From: an uncultured Bacteroidales bacterium
GTDB taxonomy: Bacteria > Bacteroidota > Bacteroidia > Bacteroidales > Bacteroidaceae
Direction: 5' to 3'
Length of the DNA: 38,309 bases
Assembly: GCA_902779315.1 (NCBI GenBank)
Contig: CACZBC010000020.1
Coordinates: 1 to 38,309 of the forward strand
Shown piece by piece: positions 4,095 through 38,309 of this stretch. Numbering within the stretch: the stretch's first letter is position 1; each line of letters opens with the position of its first letter. Made by a program: the position numbers and the translations under genes. The notes beneath the pieces were generated by a model that ran no database searches, was not told where the DNA came from, and saw only the letters and a program-made list of their open reading frames with translations.

Positions 4095-4261
4095 AGGAAA
4101 ACCAAAGTTTTTCTTTTAATTTCCGAACGGGAGTACTTTCGAGTCTAATCTCAAGGGTGAGAATAACGGAAATGCTATCCAAGTTTTTCGGTGCTTCCTC
4201 CAAGCGGACTTGCAGATTGACAAAGCCGAAGCTGGAAAACGTGGGCAAGGTAAATCTCAAT

Positions 4262-4393
4262 CGTCACACTAGTAAATCGCCAACGTCACACTAGTAAATC
4301 GCCAACGTCACACTAGTAAATCGCCAACGTCACACTAGTAAATCGCCAACGTCACACTAGTTGTTTGCGATTGTCACACTAGATGTTTGCCAA
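4262..4393 (+). repeat. Array A of the 22-bp direct repeat family
   Basis: Six units of 22 bp. The first four (4262-4349) are identical, with core TCACACTAGTAAAT and end CGCCAA. Units five and six keep the CACACTAG half but diverge after it, reading TTGTTTGCG and ATGTTTGCC. There are no spacers between units. Confidence 0.95.
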
Positions 4394-10496: not shown

Positions 10497-10603
10497 ACTT
10501 TGAGGGAAGTACCATTGAAAATCTGGCAGTTAGCAAACGGACGATGCGGGGGAATGCTGAAAAACACGTAAATTAGGTTGATTCGGGCAGCGTAAAACGT
10601 AAA

Positions 10604-10669
10604 CGACACACGTTAAAATAGCCAACGACACACGTTAAAATAGCCAACGACACACGTTAAGTTTGAAAC
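10604..10669 (+). repeat. Array B, variant of the 22-bp repeat family
   Basis: Three units of 22 bp. The first two are identical, with core CACACGTTAAAAT and end AGCCAA; the third diverges after CACACGTTA. The scaffold (CGNCACAC ... AAAT.GCCAA) matches the other arrays, but the centre is GTTA instead of TAGT. Confidence 0.85.
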
Positions 10670-21602: not shown

Positions 21603-21645
21603 ATTTCTCGAGGTCTTTCTGAACGAGGCTCGTGTCGTCCGTAAA

Positions 21646-21733
21646 CGTCACACTAGTAAATCGCCAACGTCACACTAGTAAATTACCAACTTCACACTAT
21701 ATGTTTTGAATCGTCACTGTGGTAGTTTGTAAC
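21646..21733 (+). repeat. Array C of the 22-bp repeat family
   Basis: Four 22-bp units. The first is identical to the units of array A, the second has TACCAA at its end, and the third and fourth diverge after TCACACTA and TCACTG. The fourth unit contains the stop codon of the C69 gene and runs into its last codons. Confidence 0.88.
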
Positions 21734-27978: not shown

Positions 27979-28044
27979 ATTCCAATCGTATAGTGTGACG
28001 TTTGCGAATTACTAGTGTGACATTTGCGATTTACTAGTGTGACG
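27979..28044 (-). repeat. Array D of the 22-bp repeat family
   Basis: Three 22-bp units on the reverse strand. Read 5' to 3' on that strand: 28044-28023 (core TCACACTAGTAAAT), 28022-28001 (TAATTC variant) and 27999-27979 region (diverging after TCACACTA). The array lies between two + strand genes. Confidence 0.88.
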
Positions 28045-28091
28045 TTTTCAGGGATAACTGGAGTTGTTCGAACACTTTTCTGGGCATGGAT

Positions 28092-35362: not shown

Positions 35363-35536
35363 CATCACGTAGTTAAAACGCTAACGTCACACTAGTAAAT
35401 TGCTAACGTCACACTAGTAAATTGCAAACGTCACACTAGTAAATCGCCAACGTCACACTAGTAAATTGCAAACGTCACACTAGTAAATTGCAAACGTCAC
35501 GTGTGATGTTCGCCTACGTCACGTGTGTCTATTTCT
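35363..35536 (+). repeat. Array E of the 22-bp repeat family
   Basis: Eight units in register: a degenerate first unit (35363-35384), five good units (35385-35494, core TCACACTAGTAAAT, ends TGCTAA, TGCAAA or CGCCAA), then two units with CACGTGTG in place of CACACTAG. The last runs into the stop of the epimerase gene. It lies between convergent genes. Confidence 0.95.
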
Positions 35537-36779
35537 TGCTGCTCTCTTTCTCTGCTATTCTTTCGAGCGTCTGATAGACTTGCATGAGGCCTCTCGGAAC
35601 ATGGAAACAGCCTTTCCACTTGCCGCCTTTAAGCGTGAGCAGAACCTCACCTCGGCGATTCAGGTAGCCGAACCATTCTGGATATTCCGGGTCCATAAAG
35701 TGGCTCCACACATACTCGTGGACCTTCATGAACCAATCCAAGCATTCTTGCTTGCCTGTCAGCTCATAGCCTTTAATCATCGTGATAAGTGTCTCGATGT
35801 GAACCCACCAAAGCTTCTGGTCCCATTCGAGTTGCTGCAAGGGTCTTCCCAGTCTGTCCATGAAGTAGAAGATGCCGCCGTACTGCTTGTCCCAACCGTA
35901 CTCAGCCTCACGAAGGGCGATATGAACGGCTTTGTCGATAAGGTCTTGACGACCGAGCCGCTTGCCGAGGTCCATGATGAACCACATGGCTTCGATGGCG
36001 TGACCAGGGTTGAGGAGGCGTCCTTCGTGGCAATCAACCAGCTTTCCGTCCTTGCTTACATGTTCTACAACAAGGTCCAACTCTGGGCGATAGAATACAT
36101 CCAAAACTTCGTGCAGACAGATGTCTATGGTCTCTTGAAGGAAATCTGGTTCCAATAAATCCTCAATCTCCAGGGCGACATTACAGAGAATCATGGGCAG
36201 GGCGAAGTCCTTGAGAGCTCGAGCGCCCTGAGCCGCCTTGCTCCAACGGCCTTTGGGATTGTTCCGCTTCGCAAGCACGATGTCGAAAGTCTTCTTGGCG
36301 ATGTCGGCATATTCCTGGATGCCAGTCGCCTTGTAGAGCTGACCGAAGGCAATCACGGCAAATGTGTATGAGAAGATATTGTAGGGTTCAACAAGCGGAC
36401 GGCCTTCTCTGTCGAGCGAGAAGTACCAGTTCAGCTGGCCGTCGTGCCCGTACTTCTTCAGAAACTCGGCACCCTGAATAGCCGCATCCAGCCATTCCTG
36501 CTTCTTCTCCACTTTATTGTAAAGCGTTGCCAACATCCACACCTCGCGGCCTTGCAGCCAGATGAACTTGTCGGTGTCGTAGACCTCACCATTTCGTTCG
36601 ATACATGTGAAGTACCCACCGAACTCTTTGTCTATACTGTTCTCCATCCAGAAGGGCATCACCCTGTCCAGCAGCTCGCTCTTGTACTGAGCGGCAAGAA
36701 GGTAAAAGTCAACAGCCCCCTCCCCGCTCCCCCTTTGGGGGAGTGCCTGGGTAGAAGCCTGATTATTGGTCTTATTCAT
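35529..36779 (-). CDS. N-acylglucosamine 2-epimerase (AGE/RnBP family)
   Basis: A 416-residue (alpha/alpha)6 barrel enzyme that interconverts GlcNAc and ManNAc-type sugars. DTDKFIWLQGREVWM, LLNPGHAIEAMWF, LWWVHIETL and GGKWKGCFHVPRGL carry the conserved Arg, His and Glu residues and are very close to the renin-binding protein type, favouring N-acetyl sugars over cellobiose. The first 23 residues (including ALPQRGSGEGAV) are extra: they are encoded by the left inverted repeat of the DUF559 unit, and the usual start would lie near VDFYLLA. The ATG overlaps the DUF559 stop as ATGA. Confidence 0.92.
   Translation of the reverse strand: MNKTNNQASTQALPQRGSGEGAVDFYLLAAQYKSELLDRVMPFWMENSIDKEFGGYFTCIERNGEVYDTDKFIWLQGREVWMLATLYNKVEKKQEWLDAAIQGAEFLKKYGHDGQLNWYFSLDREGRPLVEPYNIFSYTFAVIAFGQLYKATGIQEYADIAKKTFDIVLAKRNNPKGRWSKAAQGARALKDFALPMILCNVALEIEDLLEPDFLQETIDICLHEVLDVFYRPELDLVVEHVSKDGKLVDCHEGRLLNPGHAIEAMWFIMDLGKRLGRQDLIDKAVHIALREAEYGWDKQYGGIFYFMDRLGRPLQQLEWDQKLWWVHIETLITMIKGYELTGKQECLDWFMKVHEYVWSHFMDPEYPEWFGYLNRRGEVLLTLKGGKWKGCFHVPRGLMQVYQTLERIAEKESSKK
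36713..36746 (+). repeat. Left 34-bp inverted repeat of the DUF559 unit
   Basis: A GC-rich 34-bp sequence containing the stem-loop CTCCCCCTTTGGGGGAG. It is the perfect reverse complement of 37182-37215 and is translated as part of the epimerase N-terminus. Confidence 0.95.
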
Positions 36780-37165
36780 AGGATATAGTTTTTAATGGTT
36801 TCTAATACATTATCTAATTTAGTGAATATGTCTTCGTTTGCAAACCGGATTACGCGAAAGCCTAACCTCTCTATCTCGTCTGTTCGCAACTTGTCATGAT
36901 ATTGCTGACGTATGTCGTCATGATATTCTCCGTCAACTTCAACAACCAATCGTGCTGGCAGGCAAACGAAGTCTGCTATGTTGCTGGCAATAATATGTTG
37001 TCTTCTGAAAGGTTTGCCGAGCTTTTCCTGTTTTAGACAGAGCCACAATATGCGTTCTGCATCAGTTGGCAGATTCCTCATCCTCTTTGCATGCTCCTTT
37101 AGAATAGGATAAAGAGCAGGGTCAGAGGAGCAGTAGTTCGCTTTATGTCTGTCAAACTTTGTCAT
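36776..37165 (-). CDS. DUF559 (Vsr-like) endonuclease-domain protein
   Basis: A 129-residue protein of the DUF559 family, related to Vsr-type PD-(D/E)XK nucleases. RNLPTDAERILWLCLKQ and FRRQHII precede the catalytic-type residues Asp65 (IADFV) and Glu76/Asp78 (VEVDGEYHDD), and the fold ends LGFRVIRFANEDI. All active-site residues expected for a nuclease appear present. The gene lies inside a 34-bp perfect inverted repeat pair (36713-37215 overall), overlaps the symporter frame by 14 bp at its start and the epimerase by 4 bp at its end. Function of such stand-alone genes is unknown. Confidence 0.9.
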   Translation of the reverse strand: MTKFDRHKANYCSSDPALYPILKEHAKRMRNLPTDAERILWLCLKQEKLGKPFRRQHIIASNIADFVCLPARLVVEVDGEYHDDIRQQYHDKLRTDEIERLGFRVIRFANEDIFTKLDNVLETIKNYIL

Positions 37166-38309
37166 GATCAGATGCTTTGGAGCACTCCCCCAAAGGGGGA
37201 GCGGGGAGGGGGCTGACTGCTAATGCCACCAATACACTTACCACAATCCCTGTTGCTCCGAAGAGGAAGAAGTTGACGTCCGTGTAGAGGTACATGAGGA
37301 AGACGACCAGTTCGCCTGCTATGAAGCCAGTCAGGGCGGCTCGTCCCTTGATGCGCGGGAAGAAGACTGCCATGACGAAGAGACCTCCGAGGCCGCTCGT
37401 CAGCAGTCCGAGGATGGTGTTGAAGTAGTCGAGCAGGGAGGCGATGTCCCATGTGGCCATCAATAAAGCGATTCCGAGACCCATCAGTCCGCTGACGATA
37501 CACGTCCAACGGGCTACACGAAGAAGCGTCGAGTCCTTGATTGAGGGACGGAACCGCTGGATGAAGTCCACGCTAAAGGCCGTCGAGACGGAGTTGATGT
37601 TGCTCGATATCGTGCTCATCGTGGCGGCAAAGATGGCGGCAATCAACAGTCCGGCTACGCCTGCGGGCATTTGGCTCATCATGAAGTACGGGAAGATGGC
37701 ATCACCTTGCTGCATTGTGATGTCGAGGCTCGATGGGTGCGTCTTGTAGAACGTGTAGAGACCCGTGCCGATGAAGTAGAAGGCGACGGAGATGAAGACG
37801 CTCATGAAGCCGTTTAACGCTGGATAACGGTCTGGTCCGAAGTGTAGGAGATGAGGTTGTTGGCTATGCCGCCGCCGATGATGGCTACCCAGAAGGTGAC
37901 TCTTCGATAGTCCATACTCCAGATGAAGAGCCGCATCTTGTCGTTATCGACTGCCAGATTCCATGCTCCCGAGAAGCCGCCTTCGGTGTTGCCCCACAGA
38001 TAAAGGGCGGCAAAGATAGCACCACCGACCAGGATGCAGCCTTGCACGACGTCGCCCCAGATGACCGCTTCCACACCGCCCATCGTGCAATAGACGATGG
38101 TGACGAGTCCCATCAGGATGATGCAAAGGTAGATGTCGATACCCGTGACAGCGGTCAGAGCCAGCGAAGGCAGGTACATCACGAGTGCCATACGCGCCAC
38201 CATGAAGATACAGAACAGCGTGGAAGCCATCATGCGAGTGGCGAGGTTGAAGCGCTCTTCGAGTATCGCGTAGGCAGATGCCGCTTTGAGTCGGCGGAAG
38301 TAGGGTAGG
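37152..38309 (-). pseudogene. Sodium:solute symporter, frameshifted and cut by the window edge
   Basis: Two frames make one SSS-family transporter. From the window edge, LPYFRRLKAASAYAILEERFNLATR to NLISYTSDQTVIQR ends at a stop at 37814-37816; the protein continues in another frame with LNGFMSVFISVAFYFIGTGLYTFYK to 37152. The residues that normally join these parts (about 15) are missing, so a deletion with frame change near 37815 is likely. The C-terminus (SPLPAPPLGECSKASDHDKV) is encoded by the right inverted repeat of the DUF559 unit and beyond. Next to an AGE epimerase the substrate may be sialic acid or an amino sugar; this is inference. The 5' end lies outside the window. Confidence 0.85.
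37182..37215 (-). repeat. Right 34-bp inverted repeat of the DUF559 unit
   Basis: Perfect reverse complement of 36713-36746. The identity stops sharply at both ends. It is translated as the last part of the symporter frame. Confidence 0.95.

Follow-up and report, generated by a model that had tools for sequence, protein, structure and literature searches.

A DUF559 nuclease gene between inverted repeats of predicted triplex type: a candidate family of small mobile elements

Near the end of a 38,309-nucleotide stretch of DNA from an uncultured Bacteroidales bacterium (contig CACZBC010000020.1 of assembly GCA_902779315.1, positions 1 to 38,309; hereafter the window), a small gene of the DUF559 family lies between two copies of a 34-bp inverted repeat and is fitted into the genes on both sides. 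The question raised by this locus is whether the 503-bp arrangement is a mobile element and, if so, whether its nuclease acts on the repeats that enclose it. A sequence-only reading of the window had proposed a small mobile or homing-type unit, and this proposal is supported by dispersed repeat copies, by repeat-flanked DUF559 genes elsewhere and by orthologous sites that lack the unit. We consider it probable (about 0.72) that the unit is a member of a widespread family of small mobile elements whose Vsr/EDxHD-like nuclease would act on its own terminal repeats.

Anatomy of the unit

The two arms, at positions 36713–36746 and 37182–37215, form a perfect inverted repeat of 34 nt (100% complementary) with 435 nt between them, in agreement with the sharp ends described in the sequence-only reading. 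The sole gene between the arms is an open reading frame (ORF) of 129 aa on the minus strand (36776–37165) that matched PF04480 (DUF559) with an E value of 1e-29. Its residues Asp65, Glu76 and Asp78, which had been singled out as nuclease residues, correspond to D43, E54 and D56 of an alignment of 26 members (A1), in which D43 and E54 are invariant and D56 is present in at least 90% of the members. On the basis of the family match and these conserved acidic residues, the protein is a predicted member of the DUF559/Vsr-like PD-(D/E)XK nucleases. Its sequence relatives of solved structure are an endonuclease-like protein (3hrl, 1.8e-34) and a 'mobile intron protein' (3r3p, 1.5e-7). In the portion available of a 2005 study, a YcjD profile detects Vsr at 1e-5 (PMC1189080).

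The left arm contains a 17-nt hairpin core (CTCCCCCTTTGGGGGAG) at 36727–36743, and the corresponding hairpin of the right arm, at 37185–37201, is followed by a tail. With up to two mismatches allowed, the core was confined in the window to the two arms and was found in none of 100 shuffles. When the arms were folded as single-stranded DNA and compared with 200 shuffles, a stem-loop was predicted in each arm, as had been claimed, and most shuffles folded less well than the left arm (4 of the 200 equaled it).

Both arms are read as protein by the neighboring genes. The 3′ part of a sodium:solute symporter gene (37152–37805, minus strand) has its C-terminal tail and stop codon within the unit (37152–37215), and the N-acylglucosamine 2-epimerase gene (35529–36779, minus strand) has a new start and an N-terminal extension there (36713–36779). 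The DUF559 ORF shares 14 bp with the end of the symporter ORF (at 37152) and 4 bp with the start of the epimerase gene (ATG at 36779), and the translated arm reads SPLPAPPLGEC where the symporter ends and ALPQRGSGEGA where the epimerase begins; overlaps and tails agree with what had been read from the window at the outset. None of the six frames of the 34-nt arm contains a stop codon. The symporter frame is itself split near the contig end into ORFs 37152–37805 and 37814–38308, by either an assembly error or a real frameshift.

The tail of the right arm at 37206–37212 (GAGGGGG) is an exact mirror of the purine stem at 37195–37201 (GGGGGAG). With its 7-nt stem and loops AAA and CGGG, this arm conforms to the ITxF definition (stem of 6–15 nt, loops of 1–6 nt, mirror third strand), and a possible intrastrand triplex of 7 triads is predicted for it. 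Mirror tails were also common in arms at other loci. Among the hairpins found in 62, 38 and 124 arms, tails mirrored at least 6 of 7 positions in 46 of 56, 26 of 35 and 100 of 117 cases, respectively, versus 7%, 5% and 11% for shuffled tails; among equal stems the hairpin with the best mirror was kept, which slightly favors the observed side. The intrastrand-triplex motif called TMECO (BoxC, PIT) consists of a C-rich stem, a loop, a G-rich stem, a short loop and a second G-rich stretch, as given in the available part of its description (PMC4666352). The window arm, with its CTCCCCC stem, does not match the strict TMECO consensus CCCTCNCCCN3-6GGGNGAGGGN3GGGNGAGGG; many arms from the multi-phylum set described below approach it. 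By their sequence plan, the repeats of the unit would belong to the triplex type (BoxC/PIT/TMECO).

Linkage of DUF559 genes and inverted repeats across phyla

To quantify inverted flanks, the 300 bp upstream of each DUF559 domain was aligned with the reverse complement of the 300 bp downstream, and equal intervals elsewhere within the same loci served as control positions (threshold score of at least 14). These control positions replaced a mispaired null, which was discarded as uninformative because the loci share repeat families. The best-scoring loci were used throughout: the four of the source genome plus 30 from 100 genomes of the genus, 30 from 170 genomes of the phylum, the best 80 of 573 confirmed stretches in named records of several phyla, and 30 from 84 genomes of the family of Stenotrophomonas terrae (G439). 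L110 (short flank), L196 and L211 were left out, as were four of the 30 family loci that were not located by motif. One locus was counted in two sets (L098 and L133), and L183 and L185 have identical arms and come from one genome.

Inverted flanks were found at 31 of 34 DUF559 loci in the genus versus 6 of 303 control positions, at 19 of 29 versus 2 of 275 in the phylum, at 62 of 78 versus 35 of 1974 in the multi-phylum set (52 of 78 versus 2 of 1974 at a score of at least 18), and at 23 of 26 versus 7 of 260 in the G439 family. All sets combined gave 135 of 167 loci versus 50 of 2812 control positions, so that DUF559 genes are repeatedly flanked by inverted repeats, which was one of the checks proposed with the sequence-only reading. 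Positive loci of the multi-phylum set include Chloroflexi, Bacillota, Planctomycetota, Verrucomicrobia, Caldisericia, Gracilibacteria, Bacteroidetes and several proteobacteria, and the three genus loci under the threshold (12.5 to 13) still show arms by eye. Four of eight loci from a plasmid collection scored at least 14 (L129, L131, L127 and L126), including L129 on a Deinococcus plasmid, where the arms measure about 70 nt, and L126, whose arms are unlike the class. Arms are recognizable at L125 (12.5), and no matching arms were seen at L128, L130 and L132. The cis linkage of DUF559 genes and inverted repeats is strong and broad, extending over several phyla, and suggests a kind of mobile DNA that has been overlooked.

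The repeat is also dispersed, as the same reading had anticipated. The source genome (2.83 Mb in 107 contigs, 84% complete) contains 23 copies of the core, both arms counted, of which 16 are exact and 7 have one mismatch. At up to three mismatches, with palindromes counted on both strands, there were 34 and 29 matches versus 2 and 1 for the reversed pattern. Four close inverted core pairs without a gene, on contigs C9, C17, C64 and C70, have the orientation of the unit's arms. A PF04480 search of this genome identified four DUF559 genes, all of which sit between inverted repeats, with four different arm sequences. The arms of three came from repeat finding; the pair on C28 was overlooked by it, read from the sequence and then aligned over 33 nt. 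The repeat that flanks the C2 DUF559 gene recurs as a gene-less pair on C21 and as a solo copy on C40.

Nuclease and repeats also occur together across genomes. In the window's phylum (296 genomes; rank test, 7e-8), the mean hairpin count was 9.0 in the 126 genomes with a strong DUF559 match (E value up to 1e-15), 0.55 in the 44 with weak matches only and 1.53 in the 126 without DUF559, the reversed pattern giving 0.16, 0.34 and 0.42, respectively. In the G439 family (149 genomes), where one genome at 5.3e-15 was counted as strong, the median was 36.5 hairpins in 80 strong-DUF559 genomes versus 1 in 65 without, and hairpin number separated the DUF559 classes with an area under the curve of 0.96 (7e-22). 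The genomes behind 20 picked loci of the 80 in the multi-phylum set all bear hairpins, with 1 to 177 copies per genome, whereas the reversed pattern gave 0 to 4. When pairs of units at different sites were compared, the 17 pairs with nucleases 60–70% identical had a mean repeat similarity of 0.58 versus 0.35 for shuffled pairs (1 of 5000), the 60% cut having been chosen after the binned result was seen. Repeats were similar only among closely related nucleases, as expected for a nuclease and a repeat that travel together.

The E. coli member of the family is ycjD, which lies between sapF and fabI (L130; also L213–L226) and has triplex-type repeats downstream only. At least 80% of the sapF–fabI interval query is present in 3362 of 5426 E. 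coli genomes, and genomes with any copy of the repeat hold 1 to 32 copies (median 17). A clean ycjD empty site was considered at this interval and rejected because seven ycjD-less strains have a TetR-family gene next to fabI. The eefRABCD genes are located at sapF–fabI according to the part available of one report (PMC12817139).

Occupied and empty sites

The junction between the symporter and epimerase genes was surveyed at the 30 best epimerase loci in the genus. The unit is present at eight of them (partial in L066, at a contig end) and absent from 21, and no symporter was found at the remaining one. Universal occupancy, which would have spoken against the initial proposal, is thereby ruled out. 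Compared with the empty sites, the unit supplants the last codons and stop codon of the symporter gene and the ATG of the epimerase gene. Unit-free L075 retains a truncated arm, and L067 and L082 hold a solo repeat of another kind. The locus closest to the window by epimerase DNA (L067, 91%) is without the unit and the locus closest by symporter DNA (L068, 96%) is with it; both gain and loss of the unit at this junction are possible. The unit is not a recent arrival at the window locus, because eight of the 30 relatives carry it and their synonymous divergence ranges from 0.3 to saturated. Purifying selection acts on DUF559 at this site: the ratio of nonsynonymous to synonymous substitution rates (dN/dS) had a median of 0.07 in 15 usable of 21 pairs, with most dS values high or saturated.

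Eight further junctions were picked. Three of them (L271, L273 and L275) contain gene-less inverted pairs about 100–125 bp apart that consist of other repeats, L272 was taken as a gene-less pair from its translated tails, and L274 and L276 show none. A different small ORF, which we take to be GxxExxY-like, occupies the junction in L277 (1546–1810) and L278 (1276–1761).

As read from the sequence, repeats and whole units also lie in frame within host protein genes. At L091, the window's repeat lies in frame in the middle of the epimerase gene. Eight repeat-holding frames of the source genome were scanned with Pfam. Repeat copies were found between the B12-binding and activation domains of B12-dependent methionine synthase (MetH), within the domain of an N-acetylneuraminate epimerase-like kelch protein, between the 4Fe-4S motifs of a ferredoxin-like protein and upstream of the second PLD domain of a PLD-type protein; in the remaining four frames no domain was seen, or the copy was terminal or separated two domains that possibly belong to distinct genes. 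At one site within leucyl-tRNA synthetase (LeuRS), an entire DUF559 unit is inserted in frame in 5 of 20 genomes from a single family, the other 15 being insert-free; the 20 genomes were picked and two were already known to be occupied. In each of the five genomes the interrupted gene is the sole LeuRS found. Two of the interrupted genes (L267 and L268) have extra short repeat-like translated inserts (NSSPLGRSGGDFT and NSSPSGRLGG). By eye, with no family search, DUF559 units were recognized in a helicase-like protein (L269) and, with several translated repeats, in DNA methylase-like proteins (L095, L096, L098 and L131), and the DUF559 frame was seen to continue into guanylate-kinase-like sequence at L001, L057 and L060.

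The window also contains short tandem arrays of 22-bp units at 4250–4361, 10602–10660, 21644–21699, 27991–28047 and 35383–35500. At least three of these have AACGTCACACTA in common, and the array at 27991 resembles its reverse complement.

Proposed mechanism, alternatives and known systems

We propose that the element consists of two inverted repeats, each a hairpin plus a mirror tail, around a single Vsr/EDxHD-like DUF559 nuclease gene. The nuclease would most likely recognize its own repeat when this is exposed as a single strand or as a hairpin or triplex, and would nick or cut at the cognate repeat or at the target. Host repair could then copy the whole unit, or only its ends, to a new place, and solo repeats and gene-less inverted pairs would be non-autonomous derivatives. 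Because the repeats are read without stops, copies would persist where genes meet, supplying a fresh stop or start codon there, and also within reading frames, at protein loops and interdomain positions. The broader proposition, that this is a new class of autonomous mobile element in several phyla in which a single Vsr/EDxHD-type nuclease propagates triplex-forming terminal repeats, is one toward which we lean only slightly.

Several observations weigh against a mobile family driven by its own nuclease. Movement itself was never observed. No target-site duplication was readable at the junctions, where the relatives are too diverged. The fold of the right arm was not clearly above shuffles (36 of 200 as good). 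The orientation of the G-rich tail differs between sets: outward for 45 of 46 in the window's genus, but inward for 86 of 100 in the multi-phylum set. In the flank test, 32 of 167 loci were under threshold, including the LeuRS loci L097 and L100, and a few passing loci, such as L115, are unlike the repeat class. The co-occurrence statistics ignore phylogeny. Some DUF559-free genomes are rich in hairpins, both in the phylum (G224, 34; G263, 21; G168, 18; G139, 12; G196, 10) and in the G439 family (G565, 34; G497, 27; G539, 16; G488, 13), and 4 of the 80 strong-DUF559 genomes of that family hold fewer than five. Over all 434 different-site pairs, the correlation between nuclease and repeat was weak (rho 0.12; 153 of 2000 shuffles reached this value). 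Finally, the one E. coli repeat copy followed, at glnH–glnP, is nearly fixed in the species, being covered whole by 39 of the 40 matches listed.

Homing without transposition could also account for part of the data: the nuclease would cut unit-free orthologous alleles, recombination would copy the unit in and new sites would be rare; the repeats would then delimit the unit, and dispersed copies would arise as by-products. This is what the occupied and empty sites at the symporter/epimerase junction and in LeuRS would look like, and the kinship to 3r3p as well as the assignment of one DUF559 gene to the EDxHD homing family, in the part available of that study (PMC9403480), point the same way. 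However, homing alone leaves unexplained the tens to hundreds of hairpins per genome and the similar nuclease–repeat sets at unrelated sites, and we regard it as an unlikely full account. A domesticated regulator or repair factor, in which a Vsr-like DUF559 protein resolves triplex or hairpin repeats for the host as a maintained but immobile cis pair, would fit the low dN/dS ratio and the link of a Caulobacter DUF559 protein (VsrA) to the DNA damage response, reported in the available part of a 2026 study (PMC12907096). The patchy presence of DUF559 (100 of 139 genus genomes have any match, with one to eight each), the different repeats of the four copies in one genome and the insertions inside unrelated host genes make this explanation improbable.

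It is a little less probable still that another enzyme, for example a RAYT (REP-associated tyrosine transposase; REP, repetitive extragenic palindromic) or other Y1 transposase, mobilizes the repeats and that DUF559 is a passenger caught between two copies. Y1 transposase genes are present in 16 of 20 picked genomes and some repeat-rich genomes are without DUF559, but the source genome, at 84% completeness, had no PF01797 (Y1_Tnp) match despite its 23 core copies, and repeat-rich G317, G440 and G443 also lack Y1_Tnp. Because these four show none, Y1 transposases seem not to be required, and chance capture of a passenger would not place one and the same nuclease between repeats of this kind in several phyla. 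Coincidental GC-rich, terminator-like palindromes beside small genes, although intergenic hairpins are common in bacteria, were rejected as a negligible prospect by the control positions, by the far lower counts for reversed patterns and by mirror tails far above shuffled ones.

The nuclease-driven element that we favor resembles REP sequences and their inverted pairs (REPINs) with a RAYT (TnpA-REP), which are short dispersed palindromes with inverted pairs and one flanked candidate enzyme gene. Dispersed palindromes and one repeat-flanked enzyme gene are found here as well, and closely spaced inverted pairs, a REPIN-like trait, occur on C9, C17, C64 and C70 and, for the second repeat, on C21. 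The enzyme differs, being a PD-(D/E)XK-type DUF559 nuclease rather than an HUH/Y1 transposase, and insertions lie in coding sequence. The GTAG or CGTC foot of REP/RAYT occurs on neither strand of the 34-nt arm, and the repeats go with DUF559 in place of a Y1 transposase, a difference already named in the sequence-only reading. EDxHD/Vsr-like homing endonucleases, such as I-Bth0305I, share the nuclease kinship and the presence or absence at alleles, seen here between species rather than within one; unlike them, the unit has a free-standing gene between hairpin repeats and dispersed gene-less ends (no intron or intein search was made). Rickettsia palindromic elements are palindromes in frame in protein genes, as here, although the sequences were not compared, and we know of no nuclease-bearing version of them.

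The repeats also resemble BoxC/PIT/TMECO, which have the same order of stem, loop, stem and third stretch, are dispersed and sometimes form inverted pairs. These repeats were described in the 1990s and occur in more than 260 bacterial genomes, and they have neither a mobilizing enzyme nor an agreed function in the text available of Holder et al. (2015), where mobility genes were never found near TMECO sites, E. coli K-12 copies were always intergenic and no word begins with 'nuclease' (PMC4666352). A literature search that covered few subscription papers found no published link between DUF559 and these repeats, and none of the DUF559 or ycjD papers listed deals with repeats, going by titles and the opening lines of abstracts. 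If the proposed class is real, its elements move without a transposase, integrase or intron, and both the BoxC/PIT/TMECO repeats and the 'PLPxGEGxG'-like segments inserted in frame in bacterial proteins stem from them. The repeat-bracketed nuclease would be a concrete candidate for the mobilizing enzyme of BoxC/PIT repeats, with E. coli ycjD making the question testable in the laboratory, and it is relevant both to how proteins such as LeuRS, MetH and the epimerase acquire repeats and to the role of a large family of 'unknown function'. Unlike BoxC/PIT/TMECO as they appear in the available part of that description (PMC4666352), the repeats studied here enclose a DUF559 gene and are also found within protein reading frames.

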